DNA of 64,000 bases, taken from positions 7,304,501 through 7,368,500 of the forward strand of contig CM067536.1 in NCBI GenBank assembly GCA_034509925.1, read 5' to 3'. The notes under the pieces are model-generated. The model searched no databases. It was not told the DNA's origin and saw only the letters and a list, made by a program, of their open reading frames with translations. The stretch comes from Hirudinaria manillensis (taxonomy: Eukaryota; Annelida; Clitellata; Hirudinida; Hirudinidae). The position numbers were made by a program, and so were the translations under genes. Of the stretch, positions 30,110 through 64,000 are shown piece after piece. Position 1 is the first letter of the stretch. The number at the start of each line of letters is the position of its first letter.

Positions 30110-30748
30110 ATGAGTGACAGAAGCTTTAACGAAGAAGGCATGATTGACAACGAAGAAGAAAGCATTAGAAGCGGGACCAAGTGGAAGGATCACAGTGATG
30201 ATGAACCTCCTTTCAAAGCCTCTAAGACAAATTTTGGATCAACTCCTCGCTCACAGCATATCACTCTTGAACGTGAAGACATGATGATCCAGTCACCTGT
30301 TTATCAGAACAATGACTCGGACATCCCAGAGGAGTCTGAGAGAATCGGCGAAACGTCCAGCGAAGATGCAATTACGTACAAGCACATGGGACATTATATA
30401 AAACTCCCCCCTGAGCCAAAGGGCAACTGCGATCCAGTTATTCAGGAACGGATTGCAGACATGTACGACAAAATGCTTCGTAGCGGAAAAAGTTTGTTGC
30501 ACAGCATCCAGACGACCAAGAAGTTCCGAAATCCCGTCATTTACGAGAAGCTCGTGGAATTTCTTGACATAGACGAAAGAGGGACCAACTATCCACCCGA
30601 GTTCTATAACCCAAAAATATGGGGACCCGAATCCTACTACGACAAACTCAGCGAGGCCCAGCAGCGAATGGGCAAGCCCGAAAGACAAGAAGATGTTAAA
30701 AAGGAAACCAAAGCTTCTGAACCGGCCAGGAAGTCAAAATGGAACTGA
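30110..30748 (+). CDS. SAP30BP: SAP30BP/HCNGP-like transcription and splicing factor, copy 1 (intronless)
   Basis: A single open frame of 212 residues. The N-terminal half is acidic and low complexity. From about residue 92 the HCNGP domain follows: LPPEPKGNCDPVIQERI, then a helical YDKMLRSGKSL stretch, TKKFRNPVIYEKLVEFLDI, DERGTNYPPEFYNP and a C-terminal RKSKWN. KxFRNPxIYEKL and the GTNYP motif are the family's signature; members bind SAP30 of the SIN3 corepressor and act in splicing of short introns with RBM17. The C-terminal basic SKW end is kept. There are no introns although neighbours have many, and a poly(A) signal AATAAA lies at 30826-30831. A canonical-looking acceptor sits six bases before the ATG, so a 5' UTR intron or trans-splicing is possible. 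A diverged paralogue lies at 39309-40091. Confidence 0.88.
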   Translation: MSDRSFNEEGMIDNEEESIRSGTKWKDHSDDEPPFKASKTNFGSTPRSQHITLEREDMMIQSPVYQNNDSDIPEESERIGETSSEDAITYKHMGHYIKLPPEPKGNCDPVIQERIADMYDKMLRSGKSLLHSIQTTKKFRNPVIYEKLVEFLDIDERGTNYPPEFYNPKIWGPESYYDKLSEAQQRMGKPERQEDVKKETKASEPARKSKWN

Positions 30749-31379
30749 GACACGCTTTTACTGTTTTGTCTCTCATGAAATGTCTAACTTCTTTCCATAT
30801 CCCTGATCACTATTCTCACTTTATTAATAAATATTAAATATCTTTATAAATAAATATCGTTATTATTAATATAAATCATATTTTAATACTGGACCGTCAG
30901 CTCACTTTCTTAAGGGACAGACGTATTAACCATTAAGTCATAAAAAAAGTTTATTTACGATCTTAATATTTATTCAATGTGTTATGTGAAATATAATCCA
31001 TGCAATCAATGAATTTTCGGCAACAATGCTGCAATCTATGGAAAGTTGTGATTCCATGTCAAGAAAAGAGCTTTATTTATAATGAAAATGCCCGTATATA
31101 AAAATATACAATATTTTTTTTATAAACAATTACTTACGATCATTTACACTGCAATTTTATTGATATGATAAATTATTATTTGACAGTATATAAAATTTAT
31201 AAATAATTAATAATCGACAATTAAGTTTTAATGAATAAAAATTAACTAATTAAAAAGGAATATTCTGAATCTTTTTTATGTATTTGGATGACTGGCGGCT
31301 CTAATTTGACCATTCAACAACCACATCTCTACTTTGACTTGTTCGATTTGAATCAATTCATTAAGAACTTTACAGAAAC
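30749..31379. other. Spacer between SAP30BP-like copy 1 and the single TFIIF-alpha gene
   Basis: AT-rich 3' UTR of the SAP30BP-like gene, then the TFIIF-alpha upstream region. The segment from about 31256 (aaaggaatattctgaatcttttt) resembles the upstream block of the array units. An acceptor-like ctttacag lies directly before the ATG at 31380. Confidence 0.55.
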
Positions 31380-32732
31380 ATGGAAAGCAACGACGATTGT
31401 CGCATCTTCTCCGTTTTCAGGCCCGATACGAGAAATGCTCTCGATTACTACGTGGCCAAATTCGATGCAAAAAGCACCGTCGACTTTAAAAATTGTCCGG
31501 CCAAATTGGAGCGCGAGAACAATTTCAAAGAATTCAAAGCAATTTACGGCACGGACACCGACATGCCAACGACTGGAGCGGGAAGCGAATACGGAAGGGA
31601 ACAGCGTGAAGAAGCCAGGAGAAAGAAGTTCGGCTTCAGAGCCAGGCAATACGATCCGAAAAGTCAGCCTTTCATCCTGAAAATGGCATCTGGCAAAGAA
31701 GTCAAAAAGATGAAGGGCACTAAAAACGGAGGCGTAGTCAAAAACGCAAGTTACGTGGCCTTTGTTCTAACGCCACAGAAGAATTTCGTAGCTCTTCCAG
31801 TGTCCGACTGGTACAACTTTGCTCCCGTCACAAAGCGAGTGACCCTCAGCATCGAAGAGGCGGAGGAACAGTTCAAGAAAAGGGACAAAATATATAATCA
31901 CTTTGCCCTGATGACGAACAAAAAATCGGACGTCAAAGAAAATGACGACGACGATGACTTTGATGGAAAACTAGCCAAGCGTCAAAAGAAAGGTAGCTCC
32001 AAGAAGGAAACTGAGACGCTGAGTGATGACGACGAGGAAAAAGACAGTGACGATGAGGGACCTGGTGATGATAATAAGAAAAACAAAAAGCGAAAGAAAA
32101 ATGATAAGAGTGACGATGAAGACGAGAATGACGAAGGAAAGGATGAGGATGACGGTGTGAACGAAGGCCAGGAAGTTGATTACATTTCCGATGCCTCCGA
32201 CGATGATGACGACGAAACCTTTGAAGGTATCGAGGAATTGATGGAGTTCGGAGGCGAAGAGGACGAGGATGAACAAGAAAAGGATAATAAAAATGATGAC
32301 GACGACGACGAGGAGGAAATCGAGAAAGATGGAGAAAACTTCGACGACGATGACTCGGATTCCGATGATGACGTCGACAGTTTATTTGGTCCGCCATCCG
32401 GCAGTAAAGGAATCGTACCGCCTGTTTCCAAGGTGGAAGCGAAAGATACCTCTGCCGACAAGAAAAGAAAATCGGATGGAACAGAGAGTGTCACCAAGAA
32501 ATCAAAACTGGAATCGACTCCTATAAATCTTACCATCGAAAGCATGGAGGATTGTGTCAGAGATTGTCTGAAAAAGAAACCGACCTCTGCCTCCGAATTG
32601 ATGAAAAATATGGTATCCAAGTTCTCGAAATCACATTCCATGGATGAGATTAAGAAGAAACTGGTCGAGGTTATGAAGAAATTGAAACCAAAGTCGAAAA
32701 ATAACGAAGGAACGATATTTTTCTCCCTCTGA
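31380..32732 (+). CDS. GTF2F1: TFIIF alpha subunit (RAP74), diverged single copy, intronless
   Basis: One open frame of 450 residues. The N-terminal half holds the TFIIF-alpha dimerisation region, with TGAGSEYGREQREEARRKKF, then the KKMKGTKNGGV loop, and the WYNFAP and IEEAEEQFKKRDKIYNHFALM segments. The middle is a long Asp/Glu/Lys-rich tract including GQEVDYISDASDDD. The C-terminus is a winged helix (ESMEDCVRDCLKKKPTSASE through KLVEVMKKLKPK) ending in TIFFSL. With the beta subunit the protein recruits RNA polymerase II to the preinitiation complex and the C-terminal winged helix binds FCP1. There are no introns. A poly(A) signal is at 32799-32804. It carries a PSGSKGIVPP segment before VSK that the array copies lack, and differs from them at many scattered sites, so it is the older, separate relative. 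Confidence 0.94.
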   Translation: MESNDDCRIFSVFRPDTRNALDYYVAKFDAKSTVDFKNCPAKLERENNFKEFKAIYGTDTDMPTTGAGSEYGREQREEARRKKFGFRARQYDPKSQPFILKMASGKEVKKMKGTKNGGVVKNASYVAFVLTPQKNFVALPVSDWYNFAPVTKRVTLSIEEAEEQFKKRDKIYNHFALMTNKKSDVKENDDDDDFDGKLAKRQKKGSSKKETETLSDDDEEKDSDDEGPGDDNKKNKKRKKNDKSDDEDENDEGKDEDDGVNEGQEVDYISDASDDDDDETFEGIEELMEFGGEEDEDEQEKDNKNDDDDDEEEIEKDGENFDDDDSDSDDDVDSLFGPPSGSKGIVPPVSKVEAKDTSADKKRKSDGTESVTKKSKLESTPINLTIESMEDCVRDCLKKKPTSASELMKNMVSKFSKSHSMDEIKKKLVEVMKKLKPKSKNNEGTIFFSL

Positions 32733-33477
32733 AATGATAGGAGGGCTGGCCAATTGTTTAAGTATTGACTATGCCGCGTTCAAATTAAAAATATCTGTAA
32801 TAAATTGACCTTAAATGAATTAAATACTTGTCTGTCTTTTACATTTCTGAACGATGATAAGTTTATTGATAAGCTGTGATATTAAGTATCTTGTAATTAT
32901 GATTATATAACATGTAGTGACTCGCCCTGAAACCATGTCGAAGATAAACACAGGGACAGGTTAATTTCTCTGCCACGGGAGTTGCCATACCAATAAATAC
33001 AAATGCATTAGAAATTGCTTGTATTATTTTTGTAAGCTAAACCTGGTTAGTTATAATCATTATTATTATTAGTTTATTATTATTATTATTGGAATACAAT
33101 ACTGTCAACGATACTTTTAAAATAGGCCAAATTACAAAACTCTAATCTTTATTCAAAGAATTGAGTATGGTCTCAAAGAAAATGAAAATATCCAAAAATA
33201 AATTCAACGCTTCAAATGCAAATCCAAAATGAGGAATTCGCATCGGTGTTAGGCAATAGAGCCAAAAATCGGATCTCCACAAACGGGCCAGCAATAATTT
33301 TGAATTTACAAATAAAGATTGAAAATAAATATGAGATGTCAACAAATTGTAATAATTGGCGTCCGTAGAAAAATATCACAGTGAACGAGCTTTCAACAAG
33401 AAGAATCAATCAGTACCGACGAATCGCAATGACAAAAACGTATTGATTTCAATCAATATCAACCAACTTTAACGATT
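32733..33477. other. Convergent stretch between TFIIF-alpha and the ADAR-like gene
   Basis: TFIIF-alpha 3' UTR with its poly(A) signal at 32799, then AT-rich sequence with a short tta run near 33060-33090, then the ADAR-like 3' UTR. Two overlapping minus-strand frames at 33142-33409 have no recognisable motif. Confidence 0.5.
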
Positions 33478-39308: not shown

Positions 39309-40091
39309 TCAGGATTTTGAAACTTTTTGTCCATTGGAATTATTAGCAGTTGGGTCATCCCATTTTGTTTTTGATTTTTTAGTTGCTTGAATTTTGTCAA
39401 CAGTTGGCCTGTCCTTCTTGCCATCCTTCTTTTCTTTCTCTCGCTTTTCCATTTCAGCCCACTGAGCCTTGGCAAGTTCTTCATAGTGCGAATGAGGACC
39501 CCAAATGGCTGGATTATAGAGTTCTGTTGGGTAGTTAGTGCCCTTTTCATCAATGTCCAAAAATTCAAGAAGTTTCTCATATATGACAGGATTGCGAAAC
39601 TTTTTAGTGGCTCGAATGCTCTGGTTCATGTTTTTCCCTTCTCTAACCATTTTGTTGTAGAGTTCAGTCACTCTGTCTTGAATTCGTTTTGGACATTTTC
39701 CAGTTGGCTCTGGTGGTAGTTCAACATTGTGCCCCATGTATGGGTATTCAATGATGCAATCTTTTGAGGTAACTTCTGGGTTTTCTGTCTCTTTTGGTTT
39801 CTTCTGAACAATTTCATTTGAGTATGATTCCTGCTCCTCTTTAGCTTTACTTGCTGGGACATCGTCTTCTATTTCATGAGTGGTATTGGCGAAGTCATCG
39901 TCGTCGTCATCATAAGAAACCAGCCGGGCATCGTTTCTTTTCTTTTCAAATTTGGCTGAAGGTTCGCCCGTGCGCTCTAAATGAGAGGACGACCTTTTTC
40001 TGTGTCTGATGTGATCGTGTTCCTCATCAGAAATTAAATCCATATCATCTATGGAACTTCTCTCGCTTAAATTACTGTTATTGTCAGACAT
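39309..40091 (-). CDS. SAP30BP: SAP30BP/HCNGP-like transcription and splicing factor, copy 2 (intronless)
   Basis: A single open frame of 260 residues on the minus strand. An acidic N-terminus with a seven-Asp run precedes the HCNGP domain: YPYMGHNVELPPEPTGKCPK, then LYNKMVREGKNMNQSI, TKKFRNPVIYEKLLEFLDID and GTNYPTELYNPAIWGP, followed by EELAKAQWAEMEKREKEKK and a basic KSKTKWDDP near the end. It keeps the extended Lys-rich helix and KSKW box of the family better than copy 1, so it is the likelier orthologue of SAP30BP. It lacks introns too. The start is the ATG at 40091; the divergent CAPSL start is about 300 bp away. Function by family: SIN3/SAP30-linked transcription and splicing of short introns. 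Confidence 0.9.
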   Translation of the reverse strand: MSDNNSNLSERSSIDDMDLISDEEHDHIRHRKRSSSHLERTGEPSAKFEKKRNDARLVSYDDDDDDFANTTHEIEDDVPASKAKEEQESYSNEIVQKKPKETENPEVTSKDCIIEYPYMGHNVELPPEPTGKCPKRIQDRVTELYNKMVREGKNMNQSIRATKKFRNPVIYEKLLEFLDIDEKGTNYPTELYNPAIWGPHSHYEELAKAQWAEMEKREKEKKDGKKDRPTVDKIQATKKSKTKWDDPTANNSNGQKVSKS

Positions 40092-50200: not shown

Positions 50201-51607
50201 ACACTTTCAAATTAAACTCGTTTGAACAAATAATGCAATAATAATAACAATATTAATAATTATTATAAACTAATAAAGACTAAAAAACAATCGAACATAT
50301 GAAAATCACGTCAAAACAACTCAAATATTCTAAAAACTAGACCGTAAACAGATTTCACGGCATATTTACATTCACAGTACGTCCACAATACAATATAATG
50401 CAATGCAAAGAAATACAATACAACAAAACACAACACAAAACAAGGAATAGGACATCAATGACCAATACCTTACAATACCGCTTTACATTGCAATATGTGG
50501 AAATAGAAACTACCAGAAATATCAAGTTGGAACTCTAGCAGCAATATTAAGTTAAAATAATTCAATCACAACATCTTAACGACAACGAAGTTCATACGAA
50601 TCCCGTCCCCTCACTGCTCCCTTTGACCCAGATGCCCTGATCAAAGATGGACGACTCTTGTGTCTGCTTTCGATTCTGGTGATAATGATGATGACATTGG
50701 TGAACGTTTAATCAGGTGAATCGAAGTTGATGACGTCATATATTGTGTCATTGGAAAACAAATTTATACTCACACGATTCTCTAAACATTTCTTTTGTTT
50801 CATCGGTTTTTCTGAGACTCTGAAGTTATGATTTCATATGTCAAAATCTATTTCAGGTTCTTCCTGTTAACAAGGAGTTTAAAGTTTATGCTTAGATTGA
50901 CCTGGCCCTTCGAAACACGTAACTAATACGAGTTATTCTCTAAATACTAAACCAATTAAAAATGGTTAACCAAATAATATAATCAGCTCACATGCATGGT
51001 CGTTCTCTTTGTAGAAATTTCGACTGAAATCACCCAGCTGTATGCTTCTGATTGATTGGTTCACGTCATTTGGACTTGCATTTATAAACAATGACCTTCA
51101 AGAGAAGCTCTCATTGGCTAACAACTTCTTCCAGATTACGTCATTTTCATGATGACGAAGAAGTCGCCCATGGAAGTCTCTTATGGAAAATTTACCCGGA
51201 GTCAATGCTTTTCATTTAATAAAAATAATATGTTTATTAAAAATCTTTTGAACGTATCGTTTATTAAAATAATTCTTAACCAATTTAAATTGCCTTAATA
51301 AAGGGAGAAGCGATTAAGAAAAGTGAACTTCGATTTCAAAAGAGAAGGATAAACAGATATTACAATTTATATGTACTATATTGGTAAATAATAATTATTA
51401 TAACCTAAATTATTAGTTACGTAGTTATGATTCCATTTTCTCGTACATTTTTGTCGCGATAGTCGTTAGATGAAATAAATTCATTCAAATGAACTCAAAA
51501 TTTAAAAATAATTCAAATTACATAAATATATTATCAATTAAATTAAATTCTTATTCATTTTTTCATAAAAAATTATTTTCAAAAAAAGTGAAAAAAAACG
51601 ATAATTA

Positions 51608-51900
51608 ATTTCCAAGGCGGAAACGAAAGATACCTCTGCCGACAAGAAAAGGAAATCGGATGGACCAGAGAGCGTCAGCAAGAAACCGAAACTGGAATCG
51701 ACTCCTGCAAATCTTACCATCGAAAGCATGGAGGATTGTGTCAGAGATTGTCTGAAAAAGAAACCGACCTCTGCCACTGAATTGATGAAAAATATGATGT
51801 CTAAATTCTCGAAATCTTATTCCATGGATGAGATTAAGAAGAAATTGGTCGAGGTCATGAAGAAAGTGAAACAGAAGGAACGATAATCTTCTCCCTCTGA
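51608..51900 (+). pseudogene. 5'-deleted edge unit of the TFIIF-alpha array
   Basis: Array spacer sequence (about 51473-51607) joins directly to the last part of the coding region, starting at SKAETKDTSADKK. The upstream block, start codon and first three quarters of the gene are missing. A further deletion of about 16 bp near 51868-51873 shifts the frame after KKVK, ending at a TAA (51884-51886) instead of the normal end. A spacer of normal sequence follows and leads into unit 1. It marks the left margin of the array and is not expected to encode a working protein. Confidence 0.93.
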
Positions 51901-52169
51901 AATGGTAGGTTGACTGACCTTCCATTGTTTGAACACGTCCAAATTAAAAATGTCTAAATTAAATTGATTTGTTTTGATTTTTTAAACTTTTCTCTAAAAT
52001 CATTAACTTTAATAAATTAATTCAAATGAACTCAAAATTTAAAAAAAAAATTCAAATTACTTAAATATATTATCAATTAAATTACAATCATATTCTTATT
52101 CATTTTTTCATAAAAACTATTTTCAAGAAAAAGTCAAAAAAACGATAATTAAAAAAATTATTTTTTTTA

Positions 52170-52300
52170 GATTAATATTCAGAATCTTTTTCACGCACGT
52201 CGACGAGCGGCGGCTCGAATACGAGCACGCAACAACCTCATCTCACCGTGACTTGTCGTAAAACGTAAAGCGGTTTGGTAAGCATTCGCAAGTGATAAAA
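52170..52300 (+). promoter_or_regulatory. Conserved upstream block of the array units (example before unit 1)
   Basis: A GC-richer block in an AT-rich spacer, nearly invariant before every unit: a T run ending in tttttag, then attaatattcag, a cacgcacgtcgacgag segment, the inverted repeat CGAGCGGCGGCTCG and the start context aaaATGG. It probably holds the promoter and 5' UTR. No TATA box is seen. The oligo(T)-AG sites could be splice acceptors. The same aatattc.gaatctttt and ggcggctc words occur in weaker form before the single copy at 31380. Confidence 0.5.
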
Positions 52301-53611
52301 ATGGAAAACAACGAAGATTGTCGCATCTTCTCGGTTTTCAGGCCCGATACGTCGATTCCTCTCGATTACTACGTGGCCAAATTCGATGCAAAAAGTACCG
52401 TCGACTTTAAAAATTGTCCGGCCAAATTGGAGCGCGAGAACAATTTCAAAGAATTCAATGCCGTTTACGGCACCGAAACCGACATGCCAACGTCTGGAGC
52501 GGGAAGCGAATACGGAAGGGAACAGCGCGAGCAAGCCAGGAGAAAGAGATTCGGCTTCAAAGCCAGGCAATACGACCCGAAAAGTCAGCCTTTCATCTTG
52601 AAAATGGCATCTGGCAAAGAAGTCAAAAAGATGAAGGGCACTAAGAACGGAGGCGTAGTCAAAAACGCAGGTTACATGGCCTTCGTTCTAACGCCACAGA
52701 AGAATTTCGTAGCTCTTCCCGTGTCCGACTGGTACAACTTTGCTCCCGTCTCAAAGCGAGCGACCTTCAGCATCGAAGAGGCGGAGGAACAGTTCCAGAA
52801 AAGGGACAAAATATATAATCACTTTGCACTGATGGCCAACAAAAAGTCGAACGTCAACGAAAACGACGACGACGATTTCGACGGCAAACCGGCCAAGAGT
52901 CGAAAGAGAGGTCGCTCCAAGAAGGAGGAGATTGAGACGCTGAGCGATGACGACGACGAAAGAGACAGTGACGATGAGGGACCTAGCGATGGTAATAAGA
53001 AAAACAAAAAGCGAAGGAGAAATGATAAGAGTGACGATGAGAATAACGAGGTAAACGATGAGGACGACGGTGTGAACGATGGCGAAGAAGTTGATTACAT
53101 GTCCGATGCCTCCGACGACGATGATGACGACGATATCTTTGAAGGTATCGAGGAATTGATGGAGTTCGGAGGCGAAGAGGACGAGGACGAACGAGAAAAG
53201 GATAACAAAGATGATGACGACGACGAGGAGGAAACCGAGAAAGATGTAGTAAATAACGACTCGGATTCCGATGAAGACGTCGATAGCTTATTTGGTCCGC
53301 CCGTTTCCAAGGCGGAAACGAAAGATACCTCTGCCGACAAGAAAAGGAAATCGGATGGACCAGAGAGCGTCAGCAAGAAACCGAAACTGGAATCGACTCC
53401 TGCAAATCTTACCATCGAAAGCATGGAGGATTGTGTCAGAGATTGTCTGAAAAAGAAACCGACCTCTGCCACTGAATTGATGAAAAATATGATGTCTAAA
53501 TTCTCGAAATCTTATTCCATGGATGAGATTAAGAAGAAATTGGTCGAGGTCATGAAGAAAGTGAAACCCAAGACGATAAAAAACGAAGGAACGATAATCT
53601 TCTCCCTCTGA
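52301..53611 (+). CDS. GTF2F1: TFIIF-alpha array unit 1
   Basis: Intact intronless frame of 436 residues from ATG 52301 (the codon at 52292 that gives a longer reading is GTG). Domain order as in the single copy: dimerisation region with TSGAGSEYGREQREQARRK, acidic/basic middle with GEEVDYMSDASD and a seven-Asp run, and winged helix ESMEDCVRDCLKKK to TIIFSL. Variants that mark this unit: KRFGFK (Arg) and KKEEIETL; shared with unit 4. The upstream spacer has its own variant (attacaatcatattc). Expected role is the general transcription factor TFIIF; whether array copies are expressed is unknown. Confidence 0.93.
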   Translation: MENNEDCRIFSVFRPDTSIPLDYYVAKFDAKSTVDFKNCPAKLERENNFKEFNAVYGTETDMPTSGAGSEYGREQREQARRKRFGFKARQYDPKSQPFILKMASGKEVKKMKGTKNGGVVKNAGYMAFVLTPQKNFVALPVSDWYNFAPVSKRATFSIEEAEEQFQKRDKIYNHFALMANKKSNVNENDDDDFDGKPAKSRKRGRSKKEEIETLSDDDDERDSDDEGPSDGNKKNKKRRRNDKSDDENNEVNDEDDGVNDGEEVDYMSDASDDDDDDDIFEGIEELMEFGGEEDEDEREKDNKDDDDDEEETEKDVVNNDSDSDEDVDSLFGPPVSKAETKDTSADKKRKSDGPESVSKKPKLESTPANLTIESMEDCVRDCLKKKPTSATELMKNMMSKFSKSYSMDEIKKKLVEVMKKVKPKTIKNEGTIIFSL

Positions 53612-53721
53612 AATGGTAGGTTGACTGACCTGCCATTGTTTGAACACGTCCAAATTAAAAATGTCTAAATTAAATTGATTTGTTTTGATTTTTTAAACTT
53701 TTCTCTAAAATCATTAACTTT

Positions 53722-53727
53722 AATAAA
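53722..53727 (+). terminator. Poly(A) signal in the array spacer (example from unit 1)
   Basis: AATAAA about 110 bases after the stop codon, present at the same place after every complete unit, so each copy has its own 3' end signal rather than depending on read-through. Confidence 0.65.
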
Positions 53728-54009
53728 TTAATTCAAATGAACTCAAAATTTAAAAAAAAATTCAAATTACTTAAATATATTATCAATTAAATTATAATCA
53801 TATTCTTATTCATTTTTTCATAAAAATTATTTTCAAGAAAAAGTCAAAAAAACGATAATTAAAAAAATTATTTTTTTAGATTAATATTCAGAATCTTTTT
53901 CACGCACGTCGACGAGCGGCGGCTCGAATACGAGCACGCAACAACCTCATCTCACTGTGACTTGTCGTAAAACGTAAAGCGGTTTGGTAAGCATTCGCAA
54001 GTGATAAAA

Positions 54010-55326
54010 ATGGAAAACAACGAAGATTGTCGCATCTTCTCGGTTTTCAGGCCCGATACGTCGATTCCTCTCGATTACTACGTGGCCAAATTCGATGCAA
54101 AAAGTACCGTCGACTTTAAAAATTGTCCGGCCAAATTGGAGCGCGAGAACAATTTCAAAGAATTCAATGCCGTTTACGGCACCGAAACCGACATGCCAAC
54201 GTCTGGAGCGGGAAGCGAATACGGAAGGGAACAGCGCGAGCAAGCCAGGAGAAAGAAATTCGGCTTCAAAGCCAGGCAATACGACCCGAAAAGTCAGCCT
54301 TTCATCTTGAAAATGGCATCTGGCAAAGAAGTCAAAAAGATGAAGGGCACTAAGAACGGAGGCGTAGTCAAAAACGCAGGTTACATGGCCTTCGTTCTAA
54401 CGCCACAGAAGAATTTCGTAGCTCTTCCCGTGTCCGACTGGTACAACTTTGCTCCCGTCTCAAAGCGAGCGACCTTCAGCATCGAAGAGGCGGAGGAACA
54501 GTTCCAGAAAAGGGACAAAATATATAATCACTTTGCACTGATGGCCAACAAAAAGTCGAACGTCAACGAAAACGACGACGACGATTTCGATGGCAAACCG
54601 GCCAAGAGTCGAAAGAGAGGTCGCTCCAAGAAGGATGAGATTGAGACGCTGAGCGATGACGACGACGAAAGAGACAGTGACGATGAAGGACCTAGTGATG
54701 GTAATAAGAAAAACAAAAAGCGAAGGAGGAATGATAAGAGTGACGACGAGAATAACGAGGTAAACGATGAGGACGACGGTGTGAACGATGGCGAAGAAGT
54801 TGATTACATGTCCGATGCCTCCGACGACGACGACGATGACGACGACGATATCTTTGAAGGTATCGAGGAATTGATGGAGTTCGGAGGCGAAGAGGACGAG
54901 GACGAACGAGAAAAGGATAACAAAGATGATGACGACGACGAGGAGGAAACCGAGAAAGATGTAGTAAATAACGACTCGGATTCCGATGAAGACGTCGATA
55001 GCTTATTTGGTCCGCCCGTTTCCAAGGCGGAAACGAAAGATACCTCTGCCGACAAGAAAAGGAAATCGGATGGACCAGAGAGCGTCAGCAAGAAACCGAA
55101 ACTGGAATCGACTCCTGCAAATCTTACCATCGAAAGCATGGAGGATTGTGTCAGAGATTGTCTGAAAAAGAAACCGACCTCTGCCACTGAATTGATGAAA
55201 AATATGATGTCTAAATTCTCGAAATCTTATTCCATGGATGAGATTAAGAAGAAATTGGTCGAGGTCATGAAGAAAGTGAAACCCAAGACGATAAAAAACG
55301 AAGGAACGATAATCTTCTCCCTCTGA
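54010..55326 (+). CDS. GTF2F1: TFIIF-alpha array unit 2
   Basis: Intact frame of 438 residues. Differs from unit 1 by Lys in KKFGFK, Asp in KKDEIETL and two extra Asp in the run before IFEGIEE. The preceding spacer (attataatcatattcttattc, cactgtgac) matches that of unit 6. All domain segments of the family are present. Confidence 0.93.
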   Translation: MENNEDCRIFSVFRPDTSIPLDYYVAKFDAKSTVDFKNCPAKLERENNFKEFNAVYGTETDMPTSGAGSEYGREQREQARRKKFGFKARQYDPKSQPFILKMASGKEVKKMKGTKNGGVVKNAGYMAFVLTPQKNFVALPVSDWYNFAPVSKRATFSIEEAEEQFQKRDKIYNHFALMANKKSNVNENDDDDFDGKPAKSRKRGRSKKDEIETLSDDDDERDSDDEGPSDGNKKNKKRRRNDKSDDENNEVNDEDDGVNDGEEVDYMSDASDDDDDDDDDIFEGIEELMEFGGEEDEDEREKDNKDDDDDEEETEKDVVNNDSDSDEDVDSLFGPPVSKAETKDTSADKKRKSDGPESVSKKPKLESTPANLTIESMEDCVRDCLKKKPTSATELMKNMMSKFSKSYSMDEIKKKLVEVMKKVKPKTIKNEGTIIFSL

Positions 55327-55728
55327 AATGGTAGGTTGACTGACCTGCCATTGTTTGAACACGTCCAAATTAAAAATGTCTAAATTAAATTGATTTGTTT
55401 TGATTTTTTAAACTTTTCTCTAAAATCATTAACTTTAATAAATTAATTCAAATGAACTCAAAATTTAAAAAAAAATTCAAATTACTTAAATATATTATCA
55501 ATTAAATTATAATCATATTCTTAATCATTTTTTCATAAAAATTATTTTCAAGAAAAAGTCAAAAAAAAACGATAATTAAAAAAATTATTTTTTTTAGATT
55601 AATATTCAGAATCTTTTTCACGCACGTCGACGAGCGGCGGCTCGAATACGAGCACGCAACAACCTCATCTCACTGTGACTTGTCGTAAAACGTTAAAGCG
55701 GTTTGGTAAGCATTCGCAAGTGATAAAA

Positions 55729-57045
55729 ATGGAAAACAACGAAGATTGTCGCATCTTCTCGGTTTTCAGGCCCGATACGTCGATTCCTCTCGATTACTAC
55801 GTGGCCAAATTCGATGCAAAAAGTACCGTCGACTTTAAAAATTGTCCGGCCAAATTGGAGCGCGAGAACAATTTCAAAGAATTCAATGCCGTTTACGGCA
55901 CCGAAACCGACATGCCAACGTCTGGAGCGGGAAGCGAATACGGAAGGGAACAGCGCGAGCAAGCCAGGAGAAAGAAATTCGGCTTCAAAGCCAGGCAATA
56001 CGACCCGAAAAGTCAGCCTTTCATCTTGAAAATGGCATCTGGCAAAGAAGTCAAAAAGATGAAGGGCACTAAGAACGGAGGCGTAGTCAAAAACGCAGGT
56101 TACATGGCCTTCGTTCTAACGCCACAGAAGAATTTCGTAGCTCTTCCCGTGTCCGACTGGTACAACTTTGCTCCCGTCTCAAAGCGAGCGACCTTCAGCA
56201 TCGAAGAGGCGGAGGAACAGTTCCAGAAAAGGGACAAAATATATAATCACTTTGCACTGATGGCCAACAAAAAGTCGAACGTCAACGAAAACGACGACGA
56301 CGATTTCGACGGCAAACCGGCCAAGAGTCGAAAGAGAGGTCGCTCCAAGAAGGATGAGATTGAGACGCTGAGCGATGACGACGACGAAAGAGACAGTGAC
56401 GATGAAGGACCTAGCGATGGTAATAAGAAAAACAAAAAGCGAAGGAGAAATGATAAGAGTGACGATGAGAATAACGAGGTAAACGATGAGGACGACGGTG
56501 TGAACGATGGCGAAGAAGTTGATTACATGTCCGATGCCTCCGACGACGACGACGATGATGACGACGATATCTTTGAAGGTATCGAGGAATTGATGGAGTT
56601 CGGAGGCGAAGAGGACGAGGACGAACGAGAAAAGGATAACAAAGATGATGATGACGACGAGGAGGAAACCGAGAAAGATGTAGTAAATAACGACTCGGAT
56701 TCCGATGAAGACGTCGATAGCTTATTTGGTCCGCCCGTTTCCAAGGCGGAAACGAAAGATACCTCTGCCGACAAGAAAAGGAAATCGGATGGACCAGAGA
56801 GCGTCAGCAAGAAACCGAAACTGGAATCGACTCCTGCAAATCTTACCATCGAAAGCATGGAGGATTGTGTCAGAGATTGTCTGAAAAAGAAACCGACCTC
56901 TGCCACTGAATTGATGAAAAATATGATGTCTAAATTCTCGAAATCTTATTCCATGGATGAGATTAAGAAGAAATTGGTCGAGGTTATGAAGAAAGTGAAA
57001 CCCAAGACGATAAAAAACGAAGGAACAATAATCTTCTCCCTCTGA
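55729..57045 (+). CDS. GTF2F1: TFIIF-alpha array unit 3
   Basis: Intact frame of 438 residues from ATG 55729. A one-base insertion upstream (acgttaaagc rather than acgtaaagc) opens the 5' flank in frame back to 55675, which should not be taken as coding. Its spacer carries cttaatcatt and a longer A run, as does that of unit 7. The coding sequence resembles unit 2. Confidence 0.93.
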   Translation: MENNEDCRIFSVFRPDTSIPLDYYVAKFDAKSTVDFKNCPAKLERENNFKEFNAVYGTETDMPTSGAGSEYGREQREQARRKKFGFKARQYDPKSQPFILKMASGKEVKKMKGTKNGGVVKNAGYMAFVLTPQKNFVALPVSDWYNFAPVSKRATFSIEEAEEQFQKRDKIYNHFALMANKKSNVNENDDDDFDGKPAKSRKRGRSKKDEIETLSDDDDERDSDDEGPSDGNKKNKKRRRNDKSDDENNEVNDEDDGVNDGEEVDYMSDASDDDDDDDDDIFEGIEELMEFGGEEDEDEREKDNKDDDDDEEETEKDVVNNDSDSDEDVDSLFGPPVSKAETKDTSADKKRKSDGPESVSKKPKLESTPANLTIESMEDCVRDCLKKKPTSATELMKNMMSKFSKSYSMDEIKKKLVEVMKKVKPKTIKNEGTIIFSL

Positions 57046-57437
57046 AATGGTAGGTTGACTGACCTGCCATTGTTTGAACAGTGTCCAAATTAAAAATATC
57101 TAAATTAAATTGATTTGTTTTGATTTTTTAAACTTTTCTCTAAAATCATTAACTTTAATAAATTAATTCAAATGAACTCAAATTTAAAAAAAAATTCAAA
57201 TTACATAAATATATTATCAATTAAATTAAATTCTTATTCATTTTTTCATAAAAATTATTTTCAAAAAAAGTCAAAAAAACGATAATTAAAAAAATTATTT
57301 TTTTTAGATTAATATTCAGAATCTTTTTCACGCACGTCGACGAGCGGCGGCTCGAATACGAGCACGCAACAACCTCATCTCACCGTGACTTGTCGTAAAA
57401 CGTAAAGCAGTTTGGTAAGCATTCGCAAGTGATAAAA

Positions 57438-58751
57438 ATGGAAAACAACGAAGATTGTCGCATCTTCTCGGTTTTCAGGCCCGATACGTCGATTCCTCTC
57501 GATTACTACGTGGCCAAATTCGATGCAAAAAGTACCGTCGACTTTAAAAATTGTCCGGCCAAATTGGAGCGCGAGAACAATTTCAAAGAATTCAATGCCG
57601 TTTACGGCACCGAAACCGACATGCCAACGTCTGGAGCGGGAAGCGAATACGGAAGGGAACAGCGCGAGCAAGCCAGGAGAAAGAGATTCGGCTTCAAAGC
57701 CAGGCAATACGACCCGAAAAGTCAGCCTTTCATCTTGAAAATGGCATCTGGCAAAGAAGTCAAAAAGATGAAGGGCACTAAGAACGGAGGCGTAGTCAAA
57801 AACGCAGGTTACATGGCCTTCGTTCTAACGCCACAGAAGAATTTCGTAGCTCTTCCCGTGTCCGACTGGTACAACTTTGCTCCCGTCTCAAAGCGAGCGA
57901 CCTTCAGCATCGAAGAGGCGGAGGAACAGTTCCAGAAAAGGGACAAAATATATAATCACTTTGCACTGATGGCCAACAAAAAGTCGAACGTCAACGAAAA
58001 CGACGACGACGATTTCGACGGCAAACCGGCCAAGAGTCGAAAGAGAGGTCGCTCCAAGAAGGAGGAGATTGAGACGCTGAGCGATGACGACGACGAAAGA
58101 GACAGTGACGATGAGGGACCTAGTGATGGTAATAAGAAAAACAAAAAGCGAAGGAGAAATGATAAGAGTGACGACGAGAATAACGAGGTAAACGATGAGG
58201 ACGACGGTGTGAACGATGGCGAAGAAGTTGATTACATGTCCGATGCCTCCGACGACGACGACGATGATGACGACGATATCTTTGAAGGTATCGAGGAATT
58301 GATGGAGTTCGGAGGCGAAGAGGACGAGGACGAACGAGAAAAGGATAACAAAGATGATGACGACTAGGAGGAAACCGAGAAAGATGTAGTAAATAACGAC
58401 TCGGATTCCGATGAAGACGTCGATAGCTTATTTGGTCCGCCCGTTTCCAAGGCGGAAACGAAAGATACCTCTGCCGACAAGAAAAGAAAATCGGATGGAC
58501 CAGAGAGCGTCAGCAAGAAACCGAAACTGGAATCGACTCCTGCAAATCTTACCATCGAAAGCATGGAGGATTGTGTCAGAGATTGTCTGAAAAAGAAACC
58601 GACCTCTGCCACTGAATTGATGAAAAATATGATGTCTAAATTCTCGAAATCTTATTCCATGGATGAGATTAAGAAGAAATTGGTCGAGGTCATGAAGAAA
58701 GTGAAACCCAAGACGATAAAAAACGAAGGAACGATAATCTTCTCCCTCTGA
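57438..58751 (+). pseudogene. GTF2F1: TFIIF-alpha array unit 4 with a premature stop
   Basis: The frame is open from 57438 but meets TAG at 58365-58367, giving 309 residues. Other units read GAC GAC GAC GAG GAG here; this one reads GAC GAC TAG GAG, so one Asp codon is lost and a Glu codon has become amber. The dimerisation region and most of the acidic middle remain, but the C-terminal winged helix is cut off, although it stays open in the same frame to 58751. Shares KRFGFK and KKEEIETL with unit 1. A truncated product would lack the FCP1-binding domain. Confidence 0.9.
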
Positions 58752-59147
58752 AATGGTAGGTTGACTGACCTGCCATTGTTTGAACACGTCCAAATTAAAA
58801 ATGTCTAAATTAAATTGATTTGTTTTGATTTTTTAAACTTTTCTCTAAAATCATTAACTTTAATAAATTAATTCAAATGAACTCAAAATTTAAAAAAATA
58901 TTCAAATTACTTAAATATATTATCAATTAAATTAAATTCTTATTCATTTTTTCATAAAAATTATTTTCAAAAAAAAGTGAAAAAAAAAACGATAATTAAA
59001 AAAATTATTTTTTTTAGATTAATATTCAGAATCTTTTTCACGCACGTCGACGAGCGGCGGCTCGAATACGAGCACGCAACAATCTCATCTCACCGTGACT
59101 TGTCGTAAAACGTAAAGCGGTTTGGTAAGCATTCGCAAGTGATAAAA

Positions 59148-60458
59148 ATGGAAAACAACGAAGATTGTCGCATCTTCTCTGTTTTCAGGCCCGATACGTC
59201 GATTCCTCTCGATTACTACGTGGCCAAATTCGATGCAAAAAGTACCGTCGACTTTAAAAATTGTCCGGCCAAATTGGAGCGCGAGAACAATTTCAAAGAA
59301 TTCAATGCCGTTTACGGCACCGAAACCGACATGCCGACGTCTGGAGCGGGAAGCGAATACGGAAGGGAACAGCGCGAGCAAGCCAGGAGAAAGAAATTCG
59401 GCTTCAAAGCCAGGCAATACGACCCGAAAAGTCAGCCTTTCATCTTGAAAATGGCATCTGGCAAAGAAGTCAAAAAGATGAAGGGCACTAAGAACGGAGG
59501 CGTAGTCAAAAACGCAGGTTACATGGCCTTCGTTCTAACGCCACAGAAGAATTTCGTAGCTCTTCCCGTGTCCGACTGGTACAACTTTGCTCCCGTCTCA
59601 AAGCGAGCGACCTTCAGCATCGAAGAGGCGGAGGAACAGTTCCAGAAAAGGGACAAAATATATAATCACTTTGCACTGATGGCCAACAAAAAGTCGAACG
59701 TCAACGAAAACGACGACGACGATTTCGACGGCAAACCGGCCAAGAGTCGAAAGAGAGGTCGCTCCAAGAAGGATGAGATTGAGACGCTGAGCGATGACGA
59801 CGACGAAAGAGACAGTGACGATGAAGGACCTAGCGATGGTAATAAGAAAAACAAAAAGCGAAGGAGAAATGATAAGAGTGACGATGAGAATAACGAGGTA
59901 AACGATGAGGACGACGGTGTGAACGATGGCGAAGAAGTTGATTACATGTCCGATGCCTCCGACGACGATGATGACGACGATATCTTTGAAGGTATCGAGG
60001 AATTGATGGAGTTCGGAGGCGAAGAGGACGAGGACGAACGAGAAAAGGATAACAAAGATGATGACGACGACGAGGAGGAAACCGAGAAAGATGTAGTAAA
60101 TAACGACTCGGATTCCGATGAAGACGTCGATAGCTTATTTGGTCCGCCCGTTTCCAAGGCGGAAACGAAAGATACCTCTGCCGACAAGAAAAGGAAATCG
60201 GATGGACCAGAGAGCGTCAGCAAGAAACCGAAACTGGAATCGACTCCTGCAAATCTTACCATCGAAAGCATGGAGGATTGTGTCAGAGATTGTCTGAAAA
60301 AGAAACCGACCTCTGCCACTGAATTGATGAAAAATATGATGTCTAAATTCTCGAAATCTTATTCCATGGATGAGATTAAGAAGAAATTGGTCGAGGTCAT
60401 GAAGAAAGTGAAACCCAAGACGATAAAAAACGAAGGAACGATAATCTTCTCCCTCTGA
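59148..60458 (+). CDS. GTF2F1: TFIIF-alpha array unit 5
   Basis: Intact frame of 436 residues with a seven-Asp run. Carries two silent or near-silent marks: tctgttttc for tcggttttc near the start, and atgccgacg for atgccaacg, the latter shared with unit 6. The spacer before it is of the attaaattcttattc type, as before unit 4 and in the edge unit. Confidence 0.93.
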   Translation: MENNEDCRIFSVFRPDTSIPLDYYVAKFDAKSTVDFKNCPAKLERENNFKEFNAVYGTETDMPTSGAGSEYGREQREQARRKKFGFKARQYDPKSQPFILKMASGKEVKKMKGTKNGGVVKNAGYMAFVLTPQKNFVALPVSDWYNFAPVSKRATFSIEEAEEQFQKRDKIYNHFALMANKKSNVNENDDDDFDGKPAKSRKRGRSKKDEIETLSDDDDERDSDDEGPSDGNKKNKKRRRNDKSDDENNEVNDEDDGVNDGEEVDYMSDASDDDDDDDIFEGIEELMEFGGEEDEDEREKDNKDDDDDEEETEKDVVNNDSDSDEDVDSLFGPPVSKAETKDTSADKKRKSDGPESVSKKPKLESTPANLTIESMEDCVRDCLKKKPTSATELMKNMMSKFSKSYSMDEIKKKLVEVMKKVKPKTIKNEGTIIFSL

Positions 60459-60857
60459 AATGGTAGGTTGACTGACCTGCCATTGTTTGAACACGTCCAA
60501 ATTAAAAATGTCTAAATTAAATTGATTTGTTTTGATTTTTTAAACTTTTCTCTAAAATCATTAACTTTAATAAATTAATTCAAATGAACTCAAAATTTAA
60601 AAAAAAATTCAAATTACTTAAATATATTATCAATTAAATTATAATCATATTCTTATTCATTTTTTCATAAAAATTATTTTCAAGAAAAAGTCAAAAAAAC
60701 GATAATTAAAAAAATTATTTTTTTTAGATTAATATTCAGAATCTTTTTCACGCACGTCGACGAGCGGCGGCTCGAATACGAGCACGCAACAACCTCATCT
60801 CACTGTGACTTGTCGTAAAACGTAAAGCGGTTTGGTAAGCATTCGCAAGTGATAAAA

Positions 60858-62174
60858 ATGGAAAACAACGAAGATTGTCGCATCTTCTCGGTTTTCAGGC
60901 CCGATACGTCGATTCCTCTCGATTACTACGTGGCCAAATTCGATGCAAAAAGTACCGTCGACTTTAAAAATTGTCCGGCCAAATTGGAGCGCGAGAACAA
61001 TTTCAAAGAATTCAATGCCGTTTACGGCACCGAAACCGACATGCCGACGTCTGGAGCGGGAAGCGAATACGGAAGGGAACAGCGCGAGCAAGCCAGGAGA
61101 AAGAAATTCGGCTTCAAAGCCAGGCAATACGACCCGAAAAGTCAGCCTTTCATCTTGAAAATGGCATCTGGCAAAGAAGTCAAAAAGATGAAGGGCACTA
61201 AGAACGGAGGCGTAGTCAAAAACGCAGGTTACATGGCCTTCGTTCTAACGCCACAGAAGAATTTCGTAGCTCTTCCCGTGTCCGACTGGTACAACTTTGC
61301 TCCCGTCTCAAAGCGAGCGACCTTCAGCATCGAAGAGGCGGAGGAACAGTTCCAGAAAAGGGACAAAATATATAATCACTTTGCACTGATGGCCAACAAA
61401 AAGTCGAACGTCAACGAAAACGACGACGACGATTTCGACGGCAAACCGGCCAAGAGTCGAAAGAGAGGTCGCTCCAAGAAGGATGAGATTGAGACGCTGA
61501 GCGATGACGACGACGAAAGAGACAGTGACGATGAAGGACCTAGCGATGGTAATAAGAAAAACAAAAAGCGAAGGAGAAATGATAAGAGTGACGATGAGAA
61601 TAACGAGGTAAACGATGAGGACGACGGTGTGAACGATGGCGAAGAAGTTGATTACATGTCCGATGCCTCCGACGACGACGACGATGATGACGACGATATC
61701 TTTGAAGGTATCGAGGAATTGATGGAGTTCGGAGGCGAAGAGGACGAGGACGAACGAGAAAAGGATAACAAAGATGATGACGACGACGAGGAGGAAACCG
61801 AGAAAGATGTAGTAAATAACGACTCGGATTCCGATGAAGACGTCGATAGCTTATTTGGTCCGCCCGTTTCCAAGGCGGAAACGAAAGATACCTCTGCCGA
61901 CAAGAAAAGGAAATCGGATGGACCAGAGAGCGTCAGCAAGAAACCGAAACTGGAATCGACTCCTGCAAATCTTACCATCGAAAGCATGGAGGATTGTGTC
62001 AGAGATTGTCTGAAAAAGAAACCGACCTCTGCCACTGAATTGATGAAAAATATGATGTCTAAATTCTCGAAATCTTATTCCATGGATGAGATTAAGAAGA
62101 AATTGGTCGAGGTCATGAAGAAAGTGAAACCCAAGACGATAAAAAACGAAGGAACGATAATCTTCTCCCTCTGA
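60858..62174 (+). CDS. GTF2F1: TFIIF-alpha array unit 6
   Basis: Intact frame of 438 residues with the nine-Asp run of units 2 and 3. The upstream spacer is like that of unit 2, while the atgccgacg mark is shared with unit 5, so the unit is a mosaic. Confidence 0.93.
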   Translation: MENNEDCRIFSVFRPDTSIPLDYYVAKFDAKSTVDFKNCPAKLERENNFKEFNAVYGTETDMPTSGAGSEYGREQREQARRKKFGFKARQYDPKSQPFILKMASGKEVKKMKGTKNGGVVKNAGYMAFVLTPQKNFVALPVSDWYNFAPVSKRATFSIEEAEEQFQKRDKIYNHFALMANKKSNVNENDDDDFDGKPAKSRKRGRSKKDEIETLSDDDDERDSDDEGPSDGNKKNKKRRRNDKSDDENNEVNDEDDGVNDGEEVDYMSDASDDDDDDDDDIFEGIEELMEFGGEEDEDEREKDNKDDDDDEEETEKDVVNNDSDSDEDVDSLFGPPVSKAETKDTSADKKRKSDGPESVSKKPKLESTPANLTIESMEDCVRDCLKKKPTSATELMKNMMSKFSKSYSMDEIKKKLVEVMKKVKPKTIKNEGTIIFSL

Positions 62175-62576
62175 AATGGTAGGTTGACTGACCTGCCATT
62201 GTTTGAACACGTCCAAATTAAAAATGTCTAAATTAAATTGATTTGTTTTGATTTTTTAAACTTTTCTCTAAAATCATTAACTTTAATAAATTAATTCAAA
62301 TGAACTCAAAATTTAAAAAAAAATTCAAATTACTTAAATATATTATCAATTAAATTATAATCATATTCTTAATCATTTTTTCATAAAAATTATTTTCAAG
62401 AAAAAGTCAAAAAAAAAACGATAATTAAAAAAATTATTTTTTTTAGATTAATATTCAGAATCTTTTTCACGCACGTCGACGAGCGGCGGCTCGAATACGA
62501 GCACGCAACAACCTCATCTCACTGTGACTTGTCGTAAAACGTAAAGCGGTTTGGTAAGCATTCGCAAGTGATAAAA

Positions 62577-63887
62577 ATGGAAAACAACGAAGATTGTCGC
62601 ATCTTCTCGGTTTTCAGGCCCGATACGTCGATTCCTCTCGATTACTACGTGGCCAAATTCGATGCAAAAAGTACCGTCGACTTTAAAAATTGTCCGGCCA
62701 AATTGGAGCGCGAGAACAATTTCAAAGAATTCAATGCCGTTTACGGCACCGAAACCGACATGCCAACGTCTGGAGCGGGAAGCGAATACGGAAGGGAACA
62801 GCGCGAGCAAGCCAGGAGAAAGAAATTCGGCTTCAAAGCCAGGCAATACGACCCGAAAAGTCAGCCTTTCATCTTGAAAATGGCATCTGGCAAAGAAGTC
62901 AAAAAGATGAAGGGCACTAAGAACGGAGGCGTAGTCAAAAACGCAGGTTACATGGCCTTCGTTCTAACGCCACAGAAGAATTTCGTAGCTCTTCCCGTGT
63001 CCGACTGGTACAACTTTGCTCCCGTCTCAAAGCGAGCGACCTTCAGCATCGAAGAGGCGGAGGAACAGTTCCAGAAAAGGGACAAAATATATAATCACTT
63101 TGCACTGATGGCCAACAAAAAGTCGAACGTCAACGAAAACGACGACGACGATTTCGACGGCAAACCGGCCAAGAGTCGAAAGAGAGGTCGCTCCAAGAAG
63201 GATGAGATTGAGACGCTGAGCGATGACGACGACGAAAGAGACAGTGACGATGAAGGACCTAGCGATGGTAATAAGAAAAACAAAAAGCGAAGGAGAAATG
63301 ATAAGAGTGACGATGAGAATAACGAGGTAAACGATGAGGACGACGGTGTGAACGATGGCGAAGAAGTTGATTACATGTCCGATGCCTCCGACGACGATGA
63401 TGACGACGATATCTTTGAAGGTATCGAGGAATTGATGGAGTTCGGAGGCGAAGAGGACGAGGACGAACGAGAAAAGGATAACAAAGATGATGACGACGAC
63501 GAGGAGGAAACCGAGAAAGATGTAGTAAATAACGACTCGGATTCCGATGAAGACGTCGATAGCTTATTTGGTCCGCCCGTTTCCAAGGCGGAAACGAAAG
63601 ATACCTCTGCCGACAAGAAAAGGAAATCGGATGGACCAGAGAGCGTCAGCAAGAAACCGAAACTGGAATCGACTCCTGCAAATCTTACCATCGAAAGCAT
63701 GGAGGATTGTGTCAGAGATTGTCTGAAAAAGAAACCGACCTCTGCCACTGAATTGATGAAAAATATGATGTCTAAATTCTCGAAATCTTATTCCATGGAT
63801 GAGATTAAGAAGAAATTGGTCGAGGTCATGAAGAAAGTGAAACCCAAGACGATAAAAAACGAAGGAACGATAATCTTCTCCCTCTGA
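62577..63887 (+). CDS. GTF2F1: TFIIF-alpha array unit 7
   Basis: Intact frame of 436 residues with a seven-Asp run. The spacer before it is nearly identical to that before unit 3 (cttaatcatt, long A run). After its stop the spacer continues to the window end, so at least one more unit probably follows. Confidence 0.93.
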   Translation: MENNEDCRIFSVFRPDTSIPLDYYVAKFDAKSTVDFKNCPAKLERENNFKEFNAVYGTETDMPTSGAGSEYGREQREQARRKKFGFKARQYDPKSQPFILKMASGKEVKKMKGTKNGGVVKNAGYMAFVLTPQKNFVALPVSDWYNFAPVSKRATFSIEEAEEQFQKRDKIYNHFALMANKKSNVNENDDDDFDGKPAKSRKRGRSKKDEIETLSDDDDERDSDDEGPSDGNKKNKKRRRNDKSDDENNEVNDEDDGVNDGEEVDYMSDASDDDDDDDIFEGIEELMEFGGEEDEDEREKDNKDDDDDEEETEKDVVNNDSDSDEDVDSLFGPPVSKAETKDTSADKKRKSDGPESVSKKPKLESTPANLTIESMEDCVRDCLKKKPTSATELMKNMMSKFSKSYSMDEIKKKLVEVMKKVKPKTIKNEGTIIFSL

Positions 63888-64000
63888 AATGGTAGGTTGA
63901 CTGACCTGCCATTGTTTGAACACGTCCAAATTAAAAATGTCTAAATTAAATTGATTTGTTTTGATTTTTTAAACTTTTCTCTAAAATCATTAACTTTAAT

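Follow-up and report, generated by a model that had tools for sequence, protein, structure and literature searches.

The textbook view of general transcription factors is one of single-copy genes in dosage balance. The question raised by the locus considered here is why the gene for one of them, TFIIF-alpha, is repeated in a long tandem array, and what such an array could be for. When the question is put to the rest of the genome, several subunits of one and the same complex are found to be multiplied in parallel, with intron-bearing genes retained beside at least two of them. The system is a direct test case for alternative germline initiation complexes in animals, and it also tests whether promoters and mobile elements have a dedicated start signal in common.

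The array and the constraint on its protein

The window, by which is meant the whole 64-kb stretch of DNA that was analysed, holds seven TFIIF-alpha units that lie head to tail with starts at 52169, 53878, 55596, 57306, 59016, 60726, and 62445, i.e., with a spacing of 1709-1719 bp, and each unit has one intronless TFIIF-alpha reading frame. The first-pass annotation had described seven full-length units of this length, six of them intact and each with its own poly(A) signal, in an array that runs on beyond the window. This description holds: the seventh unit is cut by the window end, the frame of unit 4 is broken by an in-frame stop, AATAAA is found 111-112 bp after the stop codon in units 1-6 with the window ending inside that of unit 7, and in the genome 16 more units come after unit 7. 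The parts of the array in the window are as follows.

51473 to 52168, forward strand: left edge of the array, a spacer (51474-51608) joined to a truncated C-terminal piece plus spacer (51609-52168)
52169 to 53877, forward strand: unit 1, CDS 52301-53611, 436 aa, intact
53878 to 55595, forward strand: unit 2, CDS 54010-55326, 438 aa, intact
55596 to 57305, forward strand: unit 3, CDS 55729-57045, 438 aa, intact
57306 to 59015, forward strand: unit 4, frame from 57438 with an early in-frame stop at 58367, 309 aa
59016 to 60725, forward strand: unit 5, CDS 59148-60458, 436 aa, intact
60726 to 62444, forward strand: unit 6, CDS 60858-62174, 438 aa, intact
62445 to 64000, forward strand: unit 7, CDS 62577-63887, 436 aa, intact; the window end cuts the spacer

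That the array is a product of copying in the assembly is disfavoured, since every unit differs: any two of the seven are separated by 1-13 substitutions over 1556 bp, and all seven are distinct. Unit 4 also carries a 3-bp in-frame deletion, and the KRFGFK variant occurs in units 1 and 4.

The protein of unit 1 matches Pfam family PF05793 with an E value of 5e-62 and GTF2F1 in the PDB with an E value of 2.6e-43, and the shortened frame of unit 4 still matches PF05793 (E 1.1e-60). The PF05793 score is 210.6 bits against a cut-off of 27.1, with ordinary homologues scoring 363-478. The predicted model has a mean pLDDT of only 60.8, with about 90 in the C-terminal domain; it matches the RAP30/74 structure 1f3u (E 3.9e-8) through the N-terminal RAP30-binding fold and the winged helix of the RAP74 C-terminal domain, 1nha (E 2.7e-3).

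The genome, 148.4 Mb in 23 contigs, was searched with profiles of 11 Pfam families. PF05793 gave 27 matches, which are accounted for by the array, one single copy, and one locus on contig C3 that is matched in two pieces. The whole array has 23 units and extends from C11:7356669 to about 7395884; 17 of its units are intact, and those broken are units 4, 10, 12, 13, 15, and 17. The six intact units of the window differ by 11 synonymous and 2 nonsynonymous changes (p 6e-7), and all 17 intact units, which encode six distinct proteins, by 18 synonymous and 5 nonsynonymous ones (p 2.8e-9). When only singletons among the 17 are counted, the numbers are 5 and 3 (p 0.01). The ratio of 18 to 5 shows that the array protein is under purifying selection, and it is for this protein that the array is maintained. 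The claim of a high-copy array is in this way extended to one of 23 units, 17 of them intact, with the protein retained under coding constraint.

At the left edge lies a truncated C-terminal piece (51609-51967) that is absent from the first-pass annotation. Its tail is 94.3-96.5% identical to the tails of the other units, which are 96.9-100% identical among themselves, and a divergent copy at the edge is what unequal exchange predicts. The same feature speaks for an account by which the arrays are a largely neutral by-product, where active retroelement machinery makes retrocopies and some of these expand by unequal exchange, with no common function. The constraint on the 17 intact units among the 23 is at odds with this account, to which we assign a small chance.

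An intron-bearing GTF2F1 and the relatives of the array

The window holds a second full TFIIF-alpha copy, which the first-pass annotation lacks.

31259 to 32808, forward strand: lone dispersed intronless TFIIF-alpha copy, CDS 31380-32732, 450 aa

Between this single copy and the array the amino acid identity is 86%, dS is about 0.24, and dN is about 0.06. Gene conversion between the two is not borne out, the longest identical run having a p value of 0.22. The homology of the array to the single copy stops near the AATAAA of the latter, and inspection by eye at TFIIF-alpha gave neither a poly(A) tract nor a target-site duplication. The C3 locus is a GTF2F1 gene with several exons, and both the array and the single copy are without introns, as retrogenes are. 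The existence of this separate intron-bearing gene rules out that the array is the housekeeping TFIIF-alpha, and the premise of the first-pass annotation, that a normally single-copy general factor had been amplified, is not supported.

In a tree of 18 rows, in which the C3 exons were joined at approximate borders, the C3 gene is sister (100/100) to a clade that unites the array and the single copy with three proteins found in other assemblies. The homologues came from a search over the 8000 candidates sharing most words, which was then repeated with the N domain. Array and single copy form a group of their own, supported at 100/99 in the tree with the C3 gene and at 93/94 in an earlier tree, and the relatives from other assemblies form a separate group (97/93). 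From this grouping it appears that the duplication predates the divergence of the two lineages and that each of them gained copies independently.

The stem of the array's clade has a length of 0.89, compared with 0.37 for the C3 gene. Part of this divergence is, as judged from two comparisons, lineage-wide: F98 and V126 are common to the C3 gene and the array's clade, and ABHD17, used as a control, is also fast, with near-invariant positions lost at 24 of 174 in the window gene and 21 of 174 in Helobdella. The ABHD17 control weakens the long branch of the clade alone as proof of paralogy, and it was the C3 gene that settled the matter. In a tree of 18 rows the window ABHD17 itself falls, at 100/100, with that of the leech Helobdella robusta, and the G+C content of the window, 37%, is near the range of 33-41% given for three leeches in PMC8787918. 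On these grounds the genome is taken to be leech-like.

Consider now the case where the copies simply add amount. In this plain dosage account, a cell type with extreme transcription, such as the oocyte, the early embryo, or a gland, would be served by more of the same factor, with promoter choice unchanged. Homogenised, near-identical copies under purifying selection are what it would lead one to expect, but in the N domain the identity between the array protein and the C3 gene is only 61%, and residue 156 is Phe in the array while it is Leu in 56 of 58 homologues, in the single copy, and in the C3 gene. Given this Phe, the array protein and the canonical factor may not be equivalent, and we regard the plain dosage account as unlikely.

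The relatives also bear on an account in terms of genetic conflict, by which the array would consist of amplified selfish or counter-selfish genes, like Stellate and other ampliconic families. Tandem amplification is in its favour, together with the fact that one of the relative proteins represents a cluster of 12 member sequences. Stellate of Drosophila, as it is described in PMC7874207 and PMC10618873, is an X-linked gene with two introns, and its repression is due to piRNAs that come from a Y-linked array; like the TFIIF-alpha array, it is a tandem array derived from the gene for a core-complex subunit. The TFIIF-alpha array, in contrast, is intronless where the C3 gene is split, so that the intron structure is not shared with the parent, its coding constraint is strong, and no partner array like the Y-linked one of Stellate was seen. 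Inverted repeats were absent from 51000-64000, the window part of the array. The proposal of a Stellate-like drive, also made in the first-pass annotation, has in these respects gained no support.

Further initiation factors of this genome

When the remaining families are considered, with unit counts made by hand from the search listings, the array turns out to have company. For TFIIF-beta, where the first-pass annotation had named a count of GTF2F2 genes as a check, there are six intronless copies, which are dispersed, together with a split gene on C10. Adjacent to two of the copies is an open reading frame that we take, from its resemblance, to be a DEAD-box RNA helicase.

TFIIA-gamma has an 83-unit tandem array on C2 with a spacing of about 787 bp, two other intronless copies, and a two-piece match on C6. 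For TFIIA-alpha/beta there are at least nine array units and one single copy, all on C3, and a piecewise match on C1. The TFIIB array on C10 has 19 units, of which 15 share one orientation and 4 have the opposite one, with some frames shortened; further single TFIIB loci include a C11 locus whose open frame measures 332. TBP-like genes form a 14-unit array on C2, encoding a protein of 180 residues, and a pair on C8, while TBP is matched in pieces on C1, C15, C9, and C3. One more array joins a protein kinase to a TFIIB repeat.

C8:3219606-3267299: array of 26 tandem units, encoding a protein kinase fused to a TFIIB repeat; the match to TFIIB is a weak one, with 27.1 bits where the cut-off is 23.6

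There is no array for TFIIE-alpha (three loci), TFIIE-beta (one match, C2:12767587-12767799), TAF9 (one locus), or RPB5 (one intronless locus, one split locus, and one further fragment). The TFIIE-beta match lies about 1.3 kb past the last TBP-like unit. The window also holds two intronless SAP30BP (HCNGP) genes, which are the sole two matches in the genome.

30110 to 30748, forward strand: intronless SAP30BP gene
39309 to 40091, reverse strand: intronless SAP30BP gene

Pfam confirms all seven proteins that were scanned, and the PDB confirms TFIIB, TBP, TFIIA-gamma, and TFIIF-beta. For TFIIF-alpha and TFIIF-beta the exons of the canonical genes were read, so that intronless paralogues stand beside canonical genes in both cases, and split matches suggest intron-bearing genes for TFIIA-gamma, TFIIA-alpha/beta, TBP, and RPB5 as well.

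Coding constraint is shown, by these counts of substitutions, for TFIIF-alpha only. Four TFIIB units differ by 8 synonymous and 14 nonsynonymous changes (p 0.11), three TBP units by 0 and 1, and the few TFIIA-gamma units compared by 0 and 2, and in none of these comparisons is constraint seen, as the neutral account would have it. That account fits less well with arrays or many copies in 6 of the 11 families searched, a fraction to be read with the proviso that the families were picked as initiation factors and are not a random sample. For six or more proteins of a single complex the genome carries additional intronless genes, and most of these are multiplied, on different contigs. This is also difficult to reconcile with genetic conflict, where one finding points the other way: the TFIIB array contains an inversion, which could yield hairpin RNA. 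With several subunits of one complex amplified on different contigs and strong constraint on TFIIF-alpha, we give genetic conflict a very slight chance. The co-amplified partners argue more strongly for a working complex than for a selfish gene, again with families preselected as initiation factors.

A shared upstream motif and a proposed initiation system

To see how these genes may be controlled, consider 23 intronless genes, with one unit taken per array, and the 300 bp that precede each of them. The 16-base motif ATATTCAGAATCTTTT occurs at 14/16 or better upstream of 13 of the 23, at a distance of 92-147 bp from the ATG; the shuffle control gave 0 of 300 in each case. Among 676 background tiles of the window only two reach 14/16, and both contain the site of the single TFIIF-alpha copy itself. 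In the window the motif is placed as follows.

31260 to 31275, forward strand: shared motif of the single TFIIF-alpha copy, 15/16, 120 bp before the ATG
52175 to 52190, forward strand: shared motif ATATTCAGAATCTTTT of unit 1

The corresponding sites of units 2-7 are at 53884, 55602, 57312, 59022, 60732, and 62451, and besides the array sites and that at 31260 the window has no site at 14/16 or better on either strand.

The motif is carried by the TFIIF-alpha array and single copy, all six TFIIF-beta copies, TFIIE-beta, RPB5, one of three TFIIE-alpha genes, one of the two C8 TBP genes, and one of the two single TFIIA-gamma copies. The ten genes without it are the TFIIE-alpha genes on C13 and C3, the other C8 TBP, the other single TFIIA-gamma, both SAP30BP genes (13/16 and 11/16, below threshold), and the TFIIB, TBP, TFIIA-gamma, and kinase arrays, each represented by one unit. 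Since the motif was derived from TFIIF, TFIIE-alpha, and TBP, these are not independent tests; the cases found after its derivation are TFIIE-beta, RPB5, one TFIIA-gamma copy, and one unpaired site, at CPSF2. RPB5 had been tried as a negative control, having no array, and its intronless copy carries the motif. Ten further loci, eight of them around split genes or matches with putative 5' ends, gave no motif site. Such a shared motif suggests common control.

Another short sequence, CTATATAA, is found exactly, 96-119 bp before the ATG, in the TBP, TFIIA-gamma, and kinase arrays (shuffle p 0.010, 0.033, and 0.067 for the three), and by hand calculation about 100 bp before the ATG in the TFIIA-alpha/beta array. 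It is exact in 0.7% of background tiles, and the TFIIB array has only 7/8 of it (p 0.23). On upstream sequence two promoter types are shown, one with the shared 16-base motif and one with the CTATATAA box, for which the evidence is weak. The presence of such boxes upstream of several arrays agrees with plain dosage.

In relaxed form, the motif has 525 exact sites in the genome compared with 1 for the reversed pattern. Among the 100 of these sites that were listed, 53 stand in same-strand pairs 4.9-5.6 kb apart, which is why many motif copies probably lie in LTRs. One pair was read: it has identical 239-bp repeats, about 5.36 kb apart, followed by an apparent primer-binding site, and on these two features we read it as an LTR retroelement. 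A motif carried by such an element is in line with the neutral by-product, and a motif common to genes and retroelement is in line with genetic conflict.

The account that we consider probable is that the array belongs to a duplicated, dosage-amplified RNA polymerase II initiation machinery, which in part has a core promoter of its own and probably belongs to the germline. The array would provide a high dose of a lineage-specific TFIIF-alpha paralogue, and the duplicated machinery would comprise intronless TBP, both subunits of TFIIA, TFIIB, both subunits of TFIIF, TFIIE, and RPB5, several of them in arrays. The intronless copies would have arisen from mRNA, and the variant subunits would assemble into one variant initiation complex which prefers motif-bearing promoters. 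A motif in an LTR suggests a cell type where retroelements must be transcribed, i.e., the germline; the complex would act there or in the early embryo, where the motif-carrying retroelement and the formation of retrogenes would both profit. A wider claim, which we put forward tentatively and hold to be rather doubtful, is that one animal has a second RNA polymerase II initiation system, with its own amplified TBP, TFIIA, TFIIB, TFIIE, and TFIIF and a core promoter element, which serves intronless genes and has been exploited by, or has descended from, an LTR retroelement.

Histone gene arrays are tandem, intronless, homogenised, and supply dose, and the present arrays are like them in the first three respects and probably in the fourth, but here the arrays of different subunits lie apart from one another, and AATAAA is present in the TFIIF-alpha units. 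The proposal in the first-pass annotation of a dosage device fits best among its suggestions when it is applied to several subunits of the initiation complex together. The initiation-factor paralogues of mouse germ cells are single genes, whereas here several subunits are in tandem arrays. Those of the mouse, which include TRF2, ALF, and TAF7L in the account of PMC5006001, resemble the present ones in that variant TBP-, TFIIA-, and TFIID-related subunits stand beside canonical genes. Among top-ranked open-licence papers no report of arrays of these genes was found. In a survey of two bloodsucking leeches, 'transcription factor IIA complex' is an enriched term of expanded families, which fits with the arrays found here, while arrays, TFIIF, TFIIB, TBP, and a promoter motif are absent from the parts of that survey that concern us (PMC10087013).

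The motif also occurs at a gene of another kind. The one unpaired site that was opened heads CPSF2, the gene for a 3'-end processing factor, and is the first of a series.

C1:9374964-9382605: series of four motif sites spaced 2547 bp apart, with the CPSF2 gene behind the first

Four more motif sites are found at C2:6348984-6353956 with steps of 1641 and 1690 bp, perhaps in another tandem array.
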